Assembly: GCF_002737755.1 (NCBI RefSeq)
Contig: NZ_PEGH01000013.1
Span: 62,001 to 126,000 of the forward strand
Reading direction: 5' to 3'
Source of the DNA: Caulobacter sp. BP25
Lineage (GTDB): Bacteria > Pseudomonadota > Alphaproteobacteria > Caulobacterales > Caulobacteraceae
DNA length: 64,000 nt
In this document: piece by piece, positions 1-8,447 of the stretch
Numbering within the stretch: the first letter of the stretch is position 1
How the letters are laid out: each line of letters begins with the position of its first letter
Notes under the pieces: model-generated
Seen by the model: the letters and a program-made list of their open reading frames with translations, nothing else
Told to the model about the DNA's origin: nothing
The model's database searches: none
Program-made: the position numbers and the translations under genes

Positions 1-1
1 G

Positions 2-1759
2 GGCGCGCCCATCATTCTTCTGCATCGCACGCCCGTCTCTTCCGAGAGCTTCGAGGCGGTGCTGGAGATCCTGGATGGGCGGCGCGCGGCGATCGCTCTG
101 GACACGCCGGGTTTTGGCGGCTCGTTTCGTCCGGAAGGCCAGCCCTCGACCTTGGCCTATGCACGCTGGCTGATGGACGCCATCGACGCCCTGGGCATCG
201 AAACCTTATACCTCGGCGCGCATCACACCGGCGTCCACTTCGCGGTCGAGATGGCCGTGATGGCGCCCGACCGCGTGCTGGGAATGCTGCTCAGCGGGAT
301 CATCCATGCGCCGGCCGAGGAACGCGCCAAGATGCGCGCGGATATCGGCAAAGCCCGCCCCATAGACGTGGACGGCGTTTATATGACCGATTGCTGGAGG
401 ACGATGAAGGGCCTCTTCCTGGACCCGGTCCCCGCCCTCGTTCACGCCGAAACGATGGGAGCCCTAAACGCGATCGAGGGCCGGGACCAAGCCTTTGACG
501 CTATCCTCGATCAGGACTTTGAGGCCGTGCTGACGAAAGTCGCCTGCCCTGTCCGCGTAGCCCAGGCGACGGACGATCCCCTGACGCTGACGGGGATGCT
601 GGAGCGGGTTCAAGCGCAACGCCCCGACTTTCCGATCGAACGGTTCGGGCCGGCGTTCCTGGCGGCGCCCGAACGCCAAGCCGGCGCATTCGCCCGCGCT
701 CTCATTCGCCTAACCGAGGACACCGACGCCACGATGACCGACCGCCGCTACCAATTAAACCGCGCCAGCGCGGGCTATAATCTTGCGCGCGTCGATCAGA
801 CCACGCCCCTCCCCGGCCCCGACGAAGTGCTAGTCCATGTCCGCGCGGTGTCGATCAATCGCCGAGATATCGGCGTGCGCGACCTCTCCTATCCGGTAGG
901 CGGCGCCGATGGCTTCACGCCCTTGTCGGACGCCGCCGGCGAGGTTGTCGCCGTGGGGGCGAATGTCACGGAGTGGAAGCCGGGCGACCGCGTGACCTCG
1001 ACGTTCTTCCAGGCTTGGCCGGACGGGCGGCTGACCTTGCCCGCCGTCATGTCTTCGCTCGGAGCCGGCGGTCCAGGCGTGTTCGCTGATCATATCGTGC
1101 TGTCTCGCCATGGCGTCATCCGCACGCCGGAGCATCTGACGGATGAGGAAGCCGCCTGCCTGCCCTGCGCGGGCGTCACCGCCTGGAACGCGCTGATGAC
1201 CCTGGGGCGCCTCCAGGCTGGCGACTGGGTGCTGATCATCGGCACCGGCGGCGTCGCGCTGTTCGCGCTGCAGATCGCGGTCGCGGCGGGCGCTCGCGCG
1301 ATCGTGCTGTCCTCCAGCGACGAGAAGCTGGATCGCGCCAAGGCCATGGGCGCGGAAGTCGGGATCAACTACGCCTCGACTGCGAATTGGACGGAGGCCG
1401 TGAAGGTGGCCAGCCGCGGCTTCGGCGTTCAGCACGTAGTCGAGTTGGGCGGCGCAGGCACCCTGCCCAAATCTTTGGCCAGCCTCGGCCTGAACGGTCA
1501 TCTAGCCCTGATCGGCGCGCTCGACGGGTTTGGCGGGCAGTTGGACGCCCTGCCGATGATCTTCTCCGCCCTCCGCGTCAGCGCCGTGATGGTGGGCTCC
1601 CGGGCCGATCACGAGGCCTTGGCCGCGTTCGTGGCCGAACACGCGCTTCATCCGGTCATCGACAGCATCCACGACTTCGAGAACGCCGATGCGGCATACG
1701 CTCGGGCCGCTGGCGGCGCCTTCGGCAAGGTTGTGGTGCGCATGGAATCTCAAGCATGA
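2..1759 (+). CDS. Alpha/beta-hydrolase fused to MDR (quinone-oxidoreductase-like) reductase, 5' end cut
   Basis: The frame is open from base 2, so the start lies outside the window; the GTG at 59 is internal. The first ~240 visible residues are an alpha/beta-hydrolase fold: an HRTP segment where HGxP normally forms the oxyanion hole, then strand/turn DTPGFGGS, then the nucleophile elbow AHHTG (nt 218-232). The elbow has His where Ser/Cys/Asp is expected, and no C-terminal catalytic His is visible. At nt 734 (MTDRRYQ) a second domain begins: a medium-chain dehydrogenase/reductase with GroES-like part, then the Rossmann motif GTGGVALFAL. The structural/catalytic zinc cysteines of alcohol dehydrogenases are not evident, so an NADPH:quinone-reductase-like activity is likely. 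No stop codon separates the domains. The stop overlaps the next gene (ATGA), indicating translational coupling with the SDR. Substrate is unknown. Confidence 0.8.
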   Translation, partial: GAPIILLHRTPVSSESFEAVLEILDGRRAAIALDTPGFGGSFRPEGQPSTLAYARWLMDAIDALGIETLYLGAHHTGVHFAVEMAVMAPDRVLGMLLSGIIHAPAEERAKMRADIGKARPIDVDGVYMTDCWRTMKGLFLDPVPALVHAETMGALNAIEGRDQAFDAILDQDFEAVLTKVACPVRVAQATDDPLTLTGMLERVQAQRPDFPIERFGPAFLAAPERQAGAFARALIRLTEDTDATMTDRRYQLNRASAGYNLARVDQTTPLPGPDEVLVHVRAVSINRRDIGVRDLSYPVGGADGFTPLSDAAGEVVAVGANVTEWKPGDRVTSTFFQAWPDGRLTLPAVMSSLGAGGPGVFADHIVLSRHGVIRTPEHLTDEEAACLPCAGVTAWNALMTLGRLQAGDWVLIIGTGGVALFALQIAVAAGARAIVLSSSDEKLDRAKAMGAEVGINYASTANWTEAVKVASRGFGVQHVVELGGAGTLPKSLASLGLNGHLALIGALDGFGGQLDALPMIFSALRVSAVMVGSRADHEALAAFVAEHALHPVIDSIHDFENADAAYARAAGGAFGKVVVRMESQA

Positions 1760-2472
1760 CCCAGACCATCCTCGTCACTGGCGCCAACCGCGGCATCGGC
1801 CTGGAGCATGTGCGCCAAGCCCTCGCCGCGGGACAGTTCGTGATCGCCGCCTGTCGCTCGCCCGAGAAAGCCGGCGAGCTGGACCAATTGCATCAGCGCT
1901 TTCCTGAAAGACTGAGGATCGAACAGTTGGACACCGGCGGAGCCGCTTCCATCGCCGCATTGGCTTCGCGACTGGACGGAACTCCCATCGACATCCTGAT
2001 CAACAACGCCGGGCTCTATGGCGGCGGCTGGGATGACAGCGCGGCGCGGCAGACCCTGGCAGGGATGGACTATGAGCAGTGGGAAGAGATCCTGCGGGTC
2101 AACGTCATCGGCGTTTTCAGGCTTACCGCCGCTTTGCTTCCGAACCTGAAGCTCAGTGAGCGGAAACTGGTGGTCATGATGTCTTCTGACCTCGGCTCGA
2201 TCGCCAACAATAAGCAGGGCCAATCGCACGCCTATCGCAGCAGCAAGGCGGCGCTGAACATGCTGACCAAGGGCCTCTCGGTCGATCTGCGCGAACAAGG
2301 CGTGACGGTGATGTCCATGGCCCCTGGCTGGACGCAGACCGATCTTGGCGGCGCCAATGCGCCCTGGCCCGTCGACGAGAGCGTTCGCCGCCAACGCGCG
2401 GTGCTAGCCGAAATGACCTTGGCGCGTGGCGGCGAGTTCTTGAACCTGAAGGGCGAGACGGTCCCCTGGTGA
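1756..2472 (+). CDS. Short-chain dehydrogenase/reductase (SDR)
   Basis: A 238-residue classical SDR, NAD(P)-dependent, cytoplasmic. Visible motifs are the cofactor glycine motif TGANRGIG (residues 8-15), NNAG (83-86), the catalytic Ser around 143/144 and the YxxxK pair (Tyr160, Lys164). Length and motif spacing are normal for the family, so it should be active. The ATG overlaps the TGA of the upstream hydrolase-MDR fusion by four bases, so both are probably made from one message and may act on the same carbonyl or alcohol compound. It faces the next gene tail to tail with only 5 bp between stops. The substrate cannot be read from sequence. Confidence 0.9.
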   Translation: MTQTILVTGANRGIGLEHVRQALAAGQFVIAACRSPEKAGELDQLHQRFPERLRIEQLDTGGAASIAALASRLDGTPIDILINNAGLYGGGWDDSAARQTLAGMDYEQWEEILRVNVIGVFRLTAALLPNLKLSERKLVVMMSSDLGSIANNKQGQSHAYRSSKAALNMLTKGLSVDLREQGVTVMSMAPGWTQTDLGGANAPWPVDESVRRQRAVLAEMTLARGGEFLNLKGETVPW

Positions 2473-2477
2473 GCCGC

Positions 2478-3287
2478 CTATTCGGCGGCCAGGAACTCGC
2501 TCACCACCTGCGCCCACTCCTCGGGATAGGCGTCGACCGCGTCCACCCCGCCGCCGGGTAGCTCGACGAAGGAGAAGTCGGGGCGCATGTCGCGAGCGCG
2601 CAGCGCCGCGTCGTAGATGACGTCGTCGGGATTGGTCAGGATCAGCGTGCGATGCTTGATCCGTGTCATCGCCTCGGCGTGGTCGTATTGGAACGCCGCG
2701 TTGTGGCCCCACCACATCTCGCCATAGCCGATGAACTTCTCGGCAACGATGCGGGTCAGCACGGCCGGATCGGGATGATGGCTGGAGCCATGCAACTGCC
2801 AGCGCACCTGGAAGGTGTGCGCCAAGTGGCTGCCGTCCTGGTGATGGACCATGTCCTTTTCCTCGGCCGTCACCGTATCGCGCAGTTCCTGCAGCTCAGC
2901 CTCGGTGAAGGGCGTCGGACCGTTGATCACCAGATTGATCACGCGATCGGGCCAGCGTAGCGCGACCTCGGTCACGACCTGGGCGCCGGTATGATGGCCG
3001 GCGAAATCCGCCCGCGCGATGTGCAGATGATCCAAGACCGCCGGAAACACCGAGGCGTAGTCGGCGATCGTTGGAACGTCAGGCGTGGGATCGGAACTGC
3101 CGAACCCCGGGTGATCGACGGCGATCACGCGCAGCCCGCGCGCGACCAGGGCCGGAACGAGCAGATCGAACTGGCGCGCCGATTGCGGCGACTGGTGGCT
3201 CAGGACGATCGGCCGCCCCTCACCGCCTGTATAGTGGAAATGGACCTGGCCAAACGGCCCGTCGGCATAGCCGCGACGCGCGATCAT
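2478..3287 (-). CDS. Alpha/beta-fold hydrolase of the HxTP/HHTG clade
   Basis: A 269-residue single-domain alpha/beta-hydrolase without signal peptide. HQSP (residues 31-34) sits at the oxyanion-hole position, DHPGFGSSD follows, and the elbow is GHHTG (97-101): the nucleophile position is His. The late segment that usually carries the catalytic His reads PGGGVDAVD with no His. The same two departures occur in the hydrolase domain of the fusion protein at the left edge, so these are relatives of one divergent clade kept side by side. I recall similar HQTP...GHHTG proteins in sphingomonads and mycobacteria annotated only as alpha/beta hydrolases. It may be a non-hydrolytic enzyme or a hydrolase with another catalytic arrangement. 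Confidence 0.88.
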   Translation of the reverse strand: MIARRGYADGPFGQVHFHYTGGEGRPIVLSHQSPQSARQFDLLVPALVARGLRVIAVDHPGFGSSDPTPDVPTIADYASVFPAVLDHLHIARADFAGHHTGAQVVTEVALRWPDRVINLVINGPTPFTEAELQELRDTVTAEEKDMVHHQDGSHLAHTFQVRWQLHGSSHHPDPAVLTRIVAEKFIGYGEMWWGHNAAFQYDHAEAMTRIKHRTLILTNPDDVIYDAALRARDMRPDFSFVELPGGGVDAVDAYPEEWAQVVSEFLAAE

Positions 3288-3303
3288 AGGGAACTCCCAG
3301 GAA

Positions 3304-4404
3304 CTAGGGATGAGCGGTCAACGCCGCCTTGGCGCGCAGCGCGGCGTTAGCGCGCACGTCGGCGTAGAACAGGCCGAAGTCGTGATAGTGCAGGCTGCCG
3401 CCTGGCAGCGGCTGCAGTTCCAGCGATGGGTCGGGCGTGACGACCAGGAAGCCTCGGTCGCAGCGGGCGGCGACCTTGCCCTTCTCTAGCGGCCGCATGG
3501 GCGAGGCGTCAGGCGTTCCTGGAACCGCGCCTAGGCTTTGGGTCGCGTCGGCGGCCGGCTTGTCGGCGTCGAAGGTCAGCGGATTGACGCACAGCGTGGT
3601 CTTGCCGGCGACGTCGCCGTGAAGCGCGACGAACCGGCGCTCGGAAGCCTTGGCGATAACGTCTAGATCCGCAGACGGCAGCACCGAGTTCCACTGGACC
3701 AAGCAGTGTAGCTGGTCGGGCTTCCGGCAGATCGGCACGGTCTTGTAGGTCAGCGGGAAGTCACCCTCGGCCAGATTGAAACCGATGGTGTAAGCGGCGA
3801 CCATCTTGGCCTGCAGGGACTTTCCGTCGATACGGCGCTGGACCAGGCGCGCCACGTGCGAGCCGCCCTGGCTGTGGCCGACCAGGATGAACGGCCGACC
3901 GTGGTTCTCATGGGCGATGTACTCGTCGAAGGCGCGCTCGACATCGCCATAGGCCAGGTCGAAGGCCTTCCCGCCCTCCCCGTCCATCTTCATCAGGGCC
4001 AGGGTGGAGGCCTGGCGATAGCGCGGCGCGAACAGACGGCAGCAGCCGTCGAAGATGCTGGCCTGGCGCGCCGTGGCGCTGCCATCGGTCCAAGCGTTCA
4101 GCGTGGCGTCGGCGGGATAGCCGTTCCACTTGTCGGTGCTGCGCAGGGTCGTCGGATGGACGTAGAAGACGTCCACCTTCTGGTCTTTGCCGGCGACCAC
4201 CGCGCCGGGCGCGGGGGTCGCGCCGACGCCCTTGCCAGCGAACGCGGCCCAGGAGGCGCGATTGGCGTAGTCCAGGGCGGGCGGCGGCATTTGGCTGGCG
4301 AAATCGACGACCTGCCGACCGATCGCCGGCGAGGCCATCATCAGCAGCCCGGTCAGCAGGCCGAGCTTCCAGAAGATCCGCCCAAAATACCCGCGTCCGG
4401 CCAT
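3304..4404 (-). CDS. DUF3089 family alpha/beta-hydrolase, exported or membrane-anchored
   Basis: 366 residues from the ATG at 4404, chosen because a GGGG-rich ribosome site precedes it and the hydrophobic stretch (residues 11-28) then forms an N-terminal signal or anchor ending near AIG. A longer frame to 4509 exists but runs into the GH3 remnant. The protein matches DUF3089: an early VDVFYVHPT segment, a conserved CC around 121, and a canonical nucleophile elbow GHSQG (176-180, Ser178), with LHYHDFGLFY near the C terminus supplying candidate catalytic His residues. Unlike its upstream neighbour it keeps a normal Ser elbow. The role is unknown; an esterase or lipase-like activity in the envelope is plausible. 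Confidence 0.85.
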   Translation of the reverse strand: MAGRGYFGRIFWKLGLLTGLLMMASPAIGRQVVDFASQMPPPALDYANRASWAAFAGKGVGATPAPGAVVAGKDQKVDVFYVHPTTLRSTDKWNGYPADATLNAWTDGSATARQASIFDGCCRLFAPRYRQASTLALMKMDGEGGKAFDLAYGDVERAFDEYIAHENHGRPFILVGHSQGGSHVARLVQRRIDGKSLQAKMVAAYTIGFNLAEGDFPLTYKTVPICRKPDQLHCLVQWNSVLPSADLDVIAKASERRFVALHGDVAGKTTLCVNPLTFDADKPAADATQSLGAVPGTPDASPMRPLEKGKVAARCDRGFLVVTPDPSLELQPLPGGSLHYHDFGLFYADVRANAALRAKAALTAHP

Positions 4405-4491
4405 GGTGTCCCCGCTTAACTTACAGCCCAGAGGGACACCATCTCGCGCGAATGCGCAAACTCGGCCCACAGGATGACCACTGGTCGGACA

Positions 4492-4618
4492 GACTACGGC
4501 GCCGACCAAACCCAGCCACGGCGTAGCGATCGCGCGCCCCTGTCTGCAGCAGCACCACGGTCTTGGGATTGGCGGCCAAGACAGCCGCGATCAGGGCGTC
4601 CTGACCGTTTCGCAAAGC
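4492..4618 (-). pseudogene. Fragment of a GH3 beta-glucosidase gene
   Basis: Immediately downstream of the DUF1838 stop, one frame reads NGQDALIAAVLAANPKT followed by VVLLQTG, the well-known signature of the C-terminal domain of glycoside hydrolase family 3. About ten bases later the match continues in another frame as ATPWLGLVGAVV, equivalent to the usual PWLxxVxAVVEAWYPG. No N-terminal part exists because the DUF1838 gene occupies the upstream DNA. It is a dead scar of roughly 40 codons with a frameshift, left by a deletion or rearrangement. Confidence 0.7.
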
Positions 4619-4625
4619 CCTGAAA

Positions 4626-5627
4626 TCAGGACTTCTTCGGACGCACATAGCCGGGGGTCTCCGGAGGCACCTCTTCGGCATAGCGCATGAAGGTGTCCTG
4701 CACGCCCTCGTCCGGCCCGTCGGTCGGCTCTTCCAGCAGATCCGGGCGATCTCGCTCAACCCGCTTGAGAACGGCCTTGGGCACATCCTCCGGACCGCCG
4801 GTGATCTTGTAGCTGTGCATGCGCCCCATCAGCACGCCCTGTGCGCCACTCTGGCCCATCTTCATCCACGGCCACCAAGGCCCCTGTCGCATGAATCCGG
4901 CATGATAGCGCGCCGACACCACCGAGCGGTCGTCGATCTCGGCGGCGGGGGTAAACATCGTGAAGTGTTCGGACGGATTGATCACCGGCCCCGTTGAGGC
5001 CTTGGGCCAGCCTGCCGGCGTCACGGGGTTGGTGTACTCGTGGGCGTAGTCCCAGCCGAGCAGATACTGGTCGCCGACGCGGTTCCACGGCAGCCGGAAC
5101 GGCTGGGCCTTTGGTGCGCCCATGTCGTTGTTCTTCGTCTCTCCGTCGCCGACCTTGAACACCTTCTGCTCAAGGCCGAGCGTTCCTCGGAAGCGGTCGT
5201 TCAGGAAGGTGTAGACCTCGACCTTCTCGCCTGTGTAGGGGTTGTCCCAGACGTCCAGGATCTCGCCGGTGGCTAGATCGGTGAAGTAGCTGCACTCCTT
5301 GCCCATCACCTTCACCGAGCCGTCGGGCTGGATAACGTTGCGAACATTGCCAAACCCGCAGAAGCCAAACAGTGGCTTTGCGCGATGGCTGCCAACCAGC
5401 CCGTACTGCACGCCGTAGTAGCCCGACAGCACCGCCTTGGGTCCGATCGTGCCCCACATCTTGGCAAAGCCGTAGAGGTTCTCGCGCGGGTCTTCGATGT
5501 TCAGCGGACGAATGTTCGGGTTCGCTGCCTCGGCGGCGGGCGTGACCATTGTCATCGCGCCGGCGCCCACCAACCCTCCCAGAGCGCCGCGGCGTGAAAC
5601 GACCCGGCCAAACGTCTCGAACATCAT
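4626..5627 (-). CDS. DUF1838 family protein with Tat signal
   Basis: 333 residues. The N terminus has a twin-arginine motif (VSRRGALGG) followed by a hydrophobic stretch and an AEA cleavage region around residue 34, so it is exported folded to the periplasm. The mature part begins with the family hallmark NIEDPRENLYGFAKMWG and continues with GKECSYFTDLATGEILDVWDNP, typical of DUF1838 proteins. No catalytic residues are known for this family; Tat export suggests a bound cofactor or rapid folding. It is followed by the GH3 scar and DUF3089 gene, and preceded (133 bp) by another leftward gene, so the set could be one transcription unit. Confidence 0.85.
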   Translation of the reverse strand: MMFETFGRVVSRRGALGGLVGAGAMTMVTPAAEAANPNIRPLNIEDPRENLYGFAKMWGTIGPKAVLSGYYGVQYGLVGSHRAKPLFGFCGFGNVRNVIQPDGSVKVMGKECSYFTDLATGEILDVWDNPYTGEKVEVYTFLNDRFRGTLGLEQKVFKVGDGETKNNDMGAPKAQPFRLPWNRVGDQYLLGWDYAHEYTNPVTPAGWPKASTGPVINPSEHFTMFTPAAEIDDRSVVSARYHAGFMRQGPWWPWMKMGQSGAQGVLMGRMHSYKITGGPEDVPKAVLKRVERDRPDLLEEPTDGPDEGVQDTFMRYAEEVPPETPGYVRPKKS

Positions 5628-5760
5628 GACGGCGTATCCCAGCGTGACACCCCCTTTGCTGGAGGCGCGGGAAGGATGCCGCGAATGCCTAGGTCAGAGA
5701 CGCGCGCGCCCCGACTTCTCCGCCCTGCGACCTTGGCAAGGCGGATAGGCCGTGGTCCGC

Positions 5761-6270
5761 CTAGAACTTAGGTGGCACGGTCACGTCGAAGCTCCCCCAA
5801 TCCTTGGTGATGAACACCTCGTCGATCAGGGTGCGCTGGAAGCAGACGCCGTCGCGGAACCACTGCCAGGTGCGGGCGCGGTTCTGGCGGTCGTCCGAGT
5901 TCTGGATCATCTCATAGAGATAGACATCCGGCTCGCCCTTGCGGGTCCAGTTCAGGCAGGTCGAGCGACCATAGTCATCGGGCGACATTTGCGAGGCCCA
6001 GCCCTTGATCAGATCGTTGTCCCACCAGACGCGGCCATTCTCATACCAGGCCGGAAAGTCGCGAGTTTCGCTACGGCCGTCCTCCCAGAAATAATAGTTG
6101 GTCTGGTGATAGCGGACCTTCCCGTCGCCCTCGTCGATCAGACGGCACAACAGACGCGAACGGTGCTGGTCGGTTAGCTCGCCGGTCTTAGCGTCGTAGT
6201 AGCGATACCAGCCCTCCCAGACGCCTTCGTTGCTGACCAGGATCGGCATGGTTTCGTAGATGGTTCCCAT
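5761..6270 (-). CDS. Conserved hypothetical protein, lipocalin-like (DUF3598-like)
   Basis: 169 residues from the ATG at 6270 (MGTIYETMP). The frame extends to 6378, but the extra part has unnatural composition. The sequence is rich in aromatic and charged beta-strand segments (NEGVWEGWYRYYD, YYFWEDGRSE, RTWQWFRDG) and has no signal peptide. The pattern resembles small beta-barrel proteins of the DUF3598/lipocalin type, but this is a resemblance by eye rather than a secure family match. It lies upstream of, and in line with, the DUF1838 gene. The DUF1838 family also carries Trp/Tyr-rich strands, so the two may handle related ligands. Function unknown. Confidence 0.65.
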   Translation of the reverse strand: MGTIYETMPILVSNEGVWEGWYRYYDAKTGELTDQHRSRLLCRLIDEGDGKVRYHQTNYYFWEDGRSETRDFPAWYENGRVWWDNDLIKGWASQMSPDDYGRSTCLNWTRKGEPDVYLYEMIQNSDDRQNRARTWQWFRDGVCFQRTLIDEVFITKDWGSFDVTVPPKF

Positions 6271-6623
6271 CGGGCGTCTCGGCCTCTCGCATGCTGACGC
6301 CGACCCTCGCGAATTTACACAGTTCGGGAACGTCAGCGGTTTCGAACCGCGCCTGGGCGCGACTCCATGGCTTTCCATTGCGTTAGGCTGTCACGCGCCG
6401 AGAGTGACAAGCGGAGTGTAATCTATCCGCGGCGCGAACATGGGAGGCTGGACAGAACACCCTCCGACCACGAGGTACAGAAACAACCCAAGGCGGCTCC
6501 CCCGCGTCCCGGATCAAAAATGCGAACTTTTCGCCGCCTTTTGCGCGCCCGCCTACGATCTGGCGGCGAGAAAATCGCAATGTCGGCGGCTCTGGCGCAC
6601 TGTATCGCGCACTGGCGTAGTTT
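6271..6623. other. 353-bp intergenic region with one inverted repeat
   Basis: No gene is supported here. It is the promoter side of the leftward 5761-6270 gene and the 3' flank of tRNA-Arg. The only structure I see is a 6-bp inverted repeat TGTCAC-N9-GTGACA at 6389-6409, about 120 bp upstream of that gene, listed separately. Confidence 0.5.
6389..6409. promoter_or_regulatory. Possible operator, inverted repeat
   Basis: Perfect arms TGTCAC and GTGACA are separated by 9 bp, giving a 21-bp dyad suitable for a dimeric regulator. It is about 120 bp upstream of the 5761-6270 gene. No regulator is encoded next to it, so the assignment is speculative. Confidence 0.25.
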
Positions 6624-6700
6624 TGGCGCGCCCTGCTGGATTCGAACCAGCGACCGCTCGCTTAGAAGGCGAGTGCTCTATCCAGCTGAGCTAAGGGCGC
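6624..6700 (-). tRNA. tRNA-Arg (UCU)
   Basis: The 77-nt cloverleaf reads on the minus strand from GCGCCCTTAGCTCAGCTGG to an encoded CCA at 6624-6626. The anticodon stem CTCGC/GCGAG encloses the loop CTTCTAA, giving anticodon UCU, which reads AGA/AGG. The T loop GGTTCGAATCC is canonical. Confidence 0.95.
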
Positions 6701-7683: not shown

Positions 7684-8277
7684 TCAGGCGTCGCCTGCGG
7701 TGATTTCGGCGACCACGAGGCCCTTCGGACCTCGCGCGAACCGGACCAGGACATCATCGCCGGGCTGAAGGTCTTCCAACCCGCCCCGTCGAAGCGTCTC
7801 GATATGGACGAAGATATCGCCTGGTTCGGCGTCGCGGACTACGAAGCCATAGCCCTTGGTGCGGTTGAACCATTTCACCTTGGCGCGCTCGGCAGGCCCT
7901 TCGGGGACCAGCGCGCTGCGGCCATGGCTGTCGCATCGCTGGCCGTCTCGCCGTGGAGGACCGTCCGCGAAGGTCCGCTTCTGCCGCTCGATCGGCGCGG
8001 GCGCGGAACTCTCGTCGAGGTTGACGACCTCGCTGACCTGCCAGCCCTTGGGCCTTCGCACGACGTCGCACACGATCATCGCGCCTTCCAGAGCGGTTTC
8101 CCGTCCGCAATTGCGCAACGAAGTCACATGCAAAAGCACGTCCTTAAGCCCGGTCTGGCCTGGATCATCAGGTACTATGAAACCATAGCCCTTGCCGGCG
8201 TCGAACCACTTCACCCTGCCACTAATGCGTACGAACTCTTCGTGCGCCGCAGCGTCCTCAAAATTGTAACCAGACAT
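7684..8277 (-). CDS. Two-domain cold-shock protein
   Basis: 197 residues from MSGYNFED at 8277, preceded by AGGGGTGGG. Two cold-shock domains are joined by a ~45-residue charged linker. Domain 1 (about 18-88) carries [18 protein letters not shown]; domain 2 (about 128-195) carries [15 protein letters not shown] and DIFVHIETL, i.e. RNP1 and RNP2 single-stranded nucleic-acid-binding motifs. It is an RNA/ssDNA chaperone of the Caulobacter CspC/CspD type, which in that genus are the double-domain, stationary-phase members rather than the cold-induced ones. I cannot tell which of the two this is from sequence alone. Confidence 0.9.
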
Positions 8278-8447
8278 CCCACCCCTCTGGCTCGCTTGAT
8301 CAGCCCATCGGAGCGAGCACACGAGAACAGTGTTCTCGCGTGAGGAGAGCCGTCAATGACGAAATCGCGTCAAACGGCTCAGCAAGCGGCATCCGCGACA
8401 TTTCGCCGCAGACACACTCTAGAAACATTCTGAAATACAGCCAGGAA

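Follow-up and report, generated by a model that had tools for sequence, protein, structure and literature searches.

Few enzyme folds have been studied as closely as that of the alpha/beta-hydrolases, in which Ser, Asp or Cys is assumed to serve as nucleophile. In this work, two neighbouring genes of this fold were analysed in a 64,000-nucleotide stretch of Caulobacter sp. BP25 (the window, whose positions are used throughout; G000:C13 marks contig numbering). One encodes the hydrolase domain of a fusion protein and the other a stand-alone hydrolase at 2478-3287, and both carry His where the nucleophile is expected. We give about an even chance to the reading that both genes encode active enzymes of a family here called GxHTG, in which the elbow His and an Asp would form a general acid/base pair that works without an acyl-enzyme in the catabolism of an N-heterocycle.

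Comparison with described alpha/beta-hydrolases

The non-haem chloroperoxidase/aryl esterase group (4dgq, 1zoi, 1a88) and the C-C hydrolases (BphD, DxnB2, CarC) match the predicted model of the 2478-3287 protein over its whole length (Z 31.5 to about 28; 13-23% identity among the matches listed), with the elbow, the acid and the base loop at the same positions. However, these enzymes have a Ser elbow and a base His, whereas the window proteins have a His elbow and no base His. In pairwise sequence comparison the top matches were haloalkane and fluoroacetate dehalogenases and epoxide hydrolases, aligned over the first 100-130 residues; their H-x-x-P oxyanion loop is similar, but they require an elbow Asp for their alkyl-enzyme ester, and GxHTG proteins have His there. 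The haloalkane dehalogenase model PRK03592 scored 38-39 bits against a cut-off of 241, and PcaD 3-oxoadipate enol-lactonase (TIGR02427) 32-45 bits against 255.85.

RutD (TIGR03611), the aminoacrylate hydrolase of pyrimidine catabolism, is related at the profile level (E 9.6e-13) and carries out enamine-type chemistry in an N-heterocycle pathway, but the score was 48.1 bits against a curated cut-off of 238.5. The RutD elbow is not known to carry a His, a difference that we treat as no more than a lead. E-2-(acetamidomethylene)succinate hydrolase (3kxp), which hydrolyses an enamide in vitamin B6 catabolism, also an N-heterocycle pathway, is a structural match with Z 28.9; it has a canonical Ser triad, unlike the GxHTG proteins. 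HOD/QDO have the fold, a dispensable nucleophile and the N-heterocycle context in common with them (PMC10548524), but depend on a base His-Asp pair that is absent here, as both window proteins lack the base His, and their elbow residue is Ser or Ala, not His. Families that do not appear among the structure matches listed are not thereby excluded. Compared with these systems, GxHTG is a variation on a known fold and machinery, and proof of its chemistry could make it more than that.

The two GxHTG genes of the window

The features of the two genes are as follows.

2..733, forward strand: alpha/beta-hydrolase domain of the fusion, GxHTG type, from residue 23 to residue 266 of the 607 (Abhydrolase_1 E 1.2e-8)
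215..232, forward strand: fusion elbow G-A-H-H-T-G; nucleophile-position His at codon 224-226, preceding His at codon 221-223
734..1759, forward strand: MDR reductase domain (ADH_N and ADH_zinc_N), in frame behind the hydrolase domain with no stop between
2478..3287, reverse strand: stand-alone GxHTG alpha/beta-hydrolase of 269 residues, with H31-x-S-P, D58, H99-T100-G101 and D221-D222, and V in place of the base His
2985..2999, reverse strand: its elbow G97-H98-H99-T100-G101; H98 at 2994-2996, H99 at 2991-2993

The fusion frame (2-1759) is uninterrupted and its true GTG start lies left of the window at G000:C13:61936, so that residues 1-22 of the 607 are encoded beyond the window edge; position 218, given as the start in an earlier note on this DNA, is merely the beginning of the motif region. 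The MDR half passes the Pfam cut-offs (ADH_N 60.3 bits, ADH_zinc_N 72.3 bits), which places it in the MDR superfamily. The same fusion, with MDR halves 56-59% identical, occurs in nine further genomes within the genus and in a more distant one (L050) and is therefore not an assembly accident.

The earlier note had pointed out an HHTG elbow in both proteins, and this was found (YLGAHHTGV in the fusion, DFAGHHTGA in the stand-alone hydrolase) and is a trait of the whole family rather than chance. The other two likenesses it described are also present: the oxyanion segments are alike (LLHRTP and LSHQSP; H-x-[ST]-P), and the base segments, ERFGPAFLAAPE in the fusion and VELPGGGVDAVD in the stand-alone hydrolase, contain no His. 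Both proteins carry the family-defining motifs H-x-[ST]-P, D-x-P-G-x-G-x-S and G-x-H-T-G, with Ala for the first elbow Gly in the fusion. They are not close sisters, being about 23% identical and in separate subclades.

The GxHTG family and the position of its histidine

A profile was made from 19 homologues and searched against 385 genomes of the class and the open frames of all fetched loci. Among the 137 non-redundant domains with at least 190 bits, the nucleophile position was His in all 137, followed by Thr in 136 and then Gly in 136, and the DxPGxG Asp and the oxyanion His were present in every domain. When HHTG conservation was checked as the earlier note had proposed, the second His, the Thr and the Gly proved nearly fixed, but the place of the first His is taken by several residues (Y 41, H 38, N 24, F 15, also T, S and others), and because of this variation the family motif is better written G-x-H-T-G than HHTG. 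Ten columns were invariant in a 93-sequence alignment, and Abhydrolase_1 of Pfam matched 93 of 93 members, placing them in the superfamily by fold and profile.

In the scan of named genomes (79 loci), one of the two patterns contained HTG, which biased the loci toward the motif, and matches found only by the profile or only by tblastn were therefore checked separately. Of 56 profile-only domains, 55 had His, and a motif-blind tblastn with the window protein against plasmids returned matches, including some in Streptomyces, Rhodococcus, Variovorax, Shinella and Antarctobacter, that were all GxHTG. When the elbow and base segments were removed from the profile, every domain with at least 150 bits still had His, and domains without His scored lower; those close to the family came mostly from the second, degenerate half of tandem proteins. 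Profile searches gave no Pfam or NCBIfam family that names the clade, and no description of the family or its cluster was found in the literature on active site or pathway, where subscription journals were thinly covered. GxHTG is a widespread and sharply bounded alpha/beta-hydrolase family, unnamed as far as these searches go, that crosses phyla and includes Actinobacteria; its members are labelled merely 'alpha/beta hydrolase', which makes them an annotation trap.

Tandem two-domain proteins were also observed. A GxHTG domain is joined to a single degenerate partner, whose elbow residue is A, G, Q or E, in L042 (2-1696 and 7444-9102), L049, L057 and L058, and likewise in L062, L065, L067, L069 and L084, while two GxHTG domains occur in L046, L048, L087, L088 and L097. 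One tandem protein beside a plasmid tblastn match reads AxHTS.

In alignments with solved alpha/beta-hydrolases, the nucleophile (in GHD of epoxide hydrolase and AQD of dehalogenases) is matched by the second His of HHTG. A model of the 2478-3287 protein, built from the 93-sequence alignment (pLDDT 95.9, pTM 0.94), matched 4dgq (Z 31.5, root-mean-square deviation 2.2 over 257 residues), and the protein is predicted to have the standard alpha/beta-hydrolase fold. In this model H99 is the one residue that separates strand 93-98 from helix 100-111 and sits on the elbow, so the structure prediction suggested in the earlier note did find His at the nucleophile position. Of the canonical machinery, the Ser, Asp or Cys nucleophile is replaced by His (137/137 domains) and the acid after strand 7 is kept, being Asp in 142 of 151 domains (D221-D222 in the 2478-3287 protein). 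A shifted triad was rejected: no Ser occurs at the elbow or next to it, and the C-terminal segment has no other conserved His, any His within model positions 236-252 being counted in 73 of 131 domains.

The base His after strand 8, absent from both window proteins, is retained in 60 of the 131 domains with an aligned C-terminus. Its presence changes at least 10 times on well-supported branches of a tree built without these active-site columns (FastTree; the deep branching is rough), and Lysobacter sisters of the 2478-3287 protein (51-52% identical) keep it. For these reasons its absence in the two window genes is convergent, the base His itself being dispensable, and the missing His is not the shared mark of a clade that the earlier note had taken it for. 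That the clade is nevertheless real and functional, as that note proposed, is borne out by the near-fixed H-T-G of the 137 domains, by the separation achieved with the elbow-excised profile and by the conserved gene neighbourhoods. The proposal that the departures are not decay also holds, as the pairwise ratio of nonsynonymous to synonymous substitution rates (dN/dS) was 0.03-0.27 among eight fused copies from the genus; selection is purifying. The most conserved residues, H31, D58, H99 and T100, are those of the pocket.

Proposed mechanism and alternatives

In the proposed mechanism, the usual Ser-His-Asp triad would be collapsed into an elbow His-Asp pair, in which the Asp that follows strand 7 would orient the elbow His, and this His would act as general acid/base and activate water or the substrate directly. 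The oxyanion hole would be made up of the HxSP loop together with the Thr100 backbone NH, and no acyl-enzyme would arise because there is no Ser, Asp or Cys at the elbow. The bond hydrolysed or broken could be a C-C or C-N bond in an intermediate of enone, enamide or enamine type, with the fused or adjacent MDR reductase probably taking the neighbouring C=C or C-OH step on the same intermediate. The N-heterocycle would then be degraded via cyclic imides and alkylmaleates by an imidase-like PuuE protein, isochorismatase-type amidases, a LeuC/LeuD hydratase and lyases. Nucleophile-independent catalysis has precedents in this fold in HOD, where a His-Asp pair is the general base on N-heteroaromatics, and in MKS1, which lacks the triad (PMC10548524). 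If true, a fixed elbow His in a family that crosses phyla, combined with a base His that can be lost freely, would be a new catalytic arrangement. Several points weigh against this reading. The closeness of His99 to Asp222 is presumed, the elbow His could bind a metal or ligand without catalysis, and neither sequence searches nor the literature searched gave a characterised member. The pathway was deduced from gene content.

The elbow His could instead be a covalent nucleophile in an ordinary two-step hydrolase, passing through an acyl- or alkyl-imidazole. An invariant His exactly at the nucleophile position, a retained acid Asp and a base His in about half of the members would suit this, but the base His, needed to activate water in the second step, has been lost or changed at least 10 times independently. 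Acyl-imidazoles are labile, and we know of no alpha/beta-hydrolase that uses one, so we regard a covalent His as quite improbable. Another possibility, which we think unlikely, is that these proteins are pseudo-enzymes serving as binding or carrier subunits of the pathway. The canonical nucleophile is absent, tandem proteins combine a GxHTG domain with a degenerate His-less domain, and a lipocalin-like binder is encoded in the same cluster; however, the pocket residues are the most conserved, five divergent copies are retained in one island and one copy is fused to a reductase.

A cofactor-free dioxygenase of HOD type, cleaving a heteroaromatic ring with O2, would fit the setting, which resembles N-heterocycle catabolism, as HOD-type enzymes share the fold and work on N-heteroaromatics without requiring the nucleophile (PMC10548524). 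Its chemistry needs the base His-Asp pair, and with the base His missing from both window proteins and from over half of the family, the elbow His would have to substitute for it; such an oxygenase is therefore disfavoured for the window proteins, and we think it improbable. The elbow His might also bind a metal, which could be a catalytic ion or else the metal at the centre of a tetrapyrrole substrate. The invariant His residues of the pocket (H99 and, from the oxyanion segment, H31), the acids and a neighbouring barrel that resembles tetrapyrrole-binding proteins are in keeping with this, but H31 is also a common structural His of the superfamily and no conserved second ligand set was identified, making metal binding very unlikely. 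Decay, with broken hydrolases on their way to being lost, could appeal to the loss of the base His in both genes; it is counted as refuted by purifying selection, the lack of stops, a motif invariant across phyla and conserved operons.

Gene neighbourhood, catabolic island and possible substrate

Three further genes of the window stand beside the hydrolases.

1756..2472, forward strand: SDR oxidoreductase, with an ATGA overlap with the fusion stop codon
4626..5627, reverse strand: DUF1838 (PF08894) protein
5761..6270, reverse strand: lipocalin-like 10-strand barrel

The SDR is probably co-translated with the fusion. In the 79 loci surveyed (Novosphingobium, Hyphomonas, Parvularcula, Paraglaciecola, Lysobacter, SAR92, Woeseiaceae and others), the commonest neighbour of GxHTG genes was an MDR reductase, found in 34 loci at a median of 412 bp and on the same strand in 34 of 36 cases; in Rhodococcus it lies directly upstream. 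Other recurrent neighbours were a VOC protein (29 loci), TonB receptors (26), FAD oxidases (23), MFS transporters (20), a methyltransferase (19), DUF1838 (18), PuuE-like deacetylases (17), CoA transferases (15), the lipocalin-like protein (15), HMG-CoA-lyase-like proteins (14), LeuC (9) and LeuD (9). The window DUF1838 and lipocalin-like genes both fall in these recurrent groups. DUF1838 has further copies in the island described below and, on plasmid pP6W1, is directly downstream of a 43% identical hydrolase. The lipocalin-like genes (up to 63% identical in Hyphomonas) overlap or abut GxHTG hydrolases in their 15 loci.

Contig C13 from 1 to 68 kb (L042, L156, L157, L043 and window 1-6300) forms one catabolic island of about 68 kb, in which some genes were assigned by eye from sequence. 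It contains five GxHTG hydrolases, four PuuE-like proteins, HyuA/HyuB, isochorismatases, two LeuC/LeuD sets, a CoA transferase, an HMG-CoA lyase, a PEP-mutase-type lyase, three TonB receptors and three DUF1838-type proteins. The island ends beside a tRNA-Arg (window 6624-6700) whose 3' end points toward it; neither a direct repeat nor a G+C shift was found that would mark integration there. Parts of it recur in distant bacteria, and the conjugative or mobilizable sphingomonad plasmids pJE1 (L155) and pTomTYG65b (L154) carry a compact cluster of LeuC, LeuC-LeuD, two deacetylases, an isochorismatase, an HMG-CoA lyase, a CoA transferase, VOC, GxHTG hydrolases and TonB. Being tied so closely to a recurring catabolic cluster, the family gives a practical handle on its substrate and on a degradation pathway of which the literature searched gave no description.

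The PuuE-type proteins of the island match PuuE allantoinase (E 3.7e-64) and one isochorismatase is RutB-like. Together with oxoprolinase-type HyuA/B, isochorismatase-type amidases, LeuC/LeuD and the lyases, the PuuE-type proteins suggest opening of a cyclic imide or lactam and hydration of an alkylmaleate. This gene content points to an N-heterocycle as the island substrate, perhaps a maleimide derived from a tetrapyrrole; chlorophyll and haem are described as breaking down to methyl-alkyl maleimides and hematinic acid (PMC7318184). The lipocalin-like protein has no Pfam, NCBIfam or PDB sequence match, but its model (pLDDT 92.2) matches BFA1 (Z 17.0), a DUF3598 protein (14.9), nitrobindin (14.0), CpeS (13.5), one of the CpeS/CpcS phycobilin lyases, Ycf58 (12.7), UnaG (10.7) and fatty-acid-binding proteins (10-11). 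These fold matches may favour a tetrapyrrole ligand, but only mildly, because fatty-acid-binding proteins match too, and tetrapyrrole catabolism is a lead rather than a result. In its boldest form, which we think unlikely, the elbow His-Asp family would cleave, without a covalent intermediate, the bridges of tetrapyrrole chromophores such as bilins and chlorophyll or haem products; PuuE-like imidases and amidases would open the alkylmaleimides and LeuC/LeuD would hydrate them before they are split to pyruvate and acids, the whole amounting to an undescribed bacterial mineralisation pathway.

The methyltransferase-domain proteins found beside GxHTG hydrolases in 19 loci are large (about 400 residues; for example L042 1270-2496 and G000:C13:41376-42581), their N-terminal half is unassigned, and one also adjoins a hydrolase on plasmid pSMS3-3. 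Between the second GxHTG gene and DUF1838 lies a DUF3089 protein (3304-4416, reverse strand) with an ordinary GHSQGG elbow, which is not a recurrent neighbour. A protein with two cold-shock-like domains, identified by eye, is encoded at 7684-8322 on the reverse strand.

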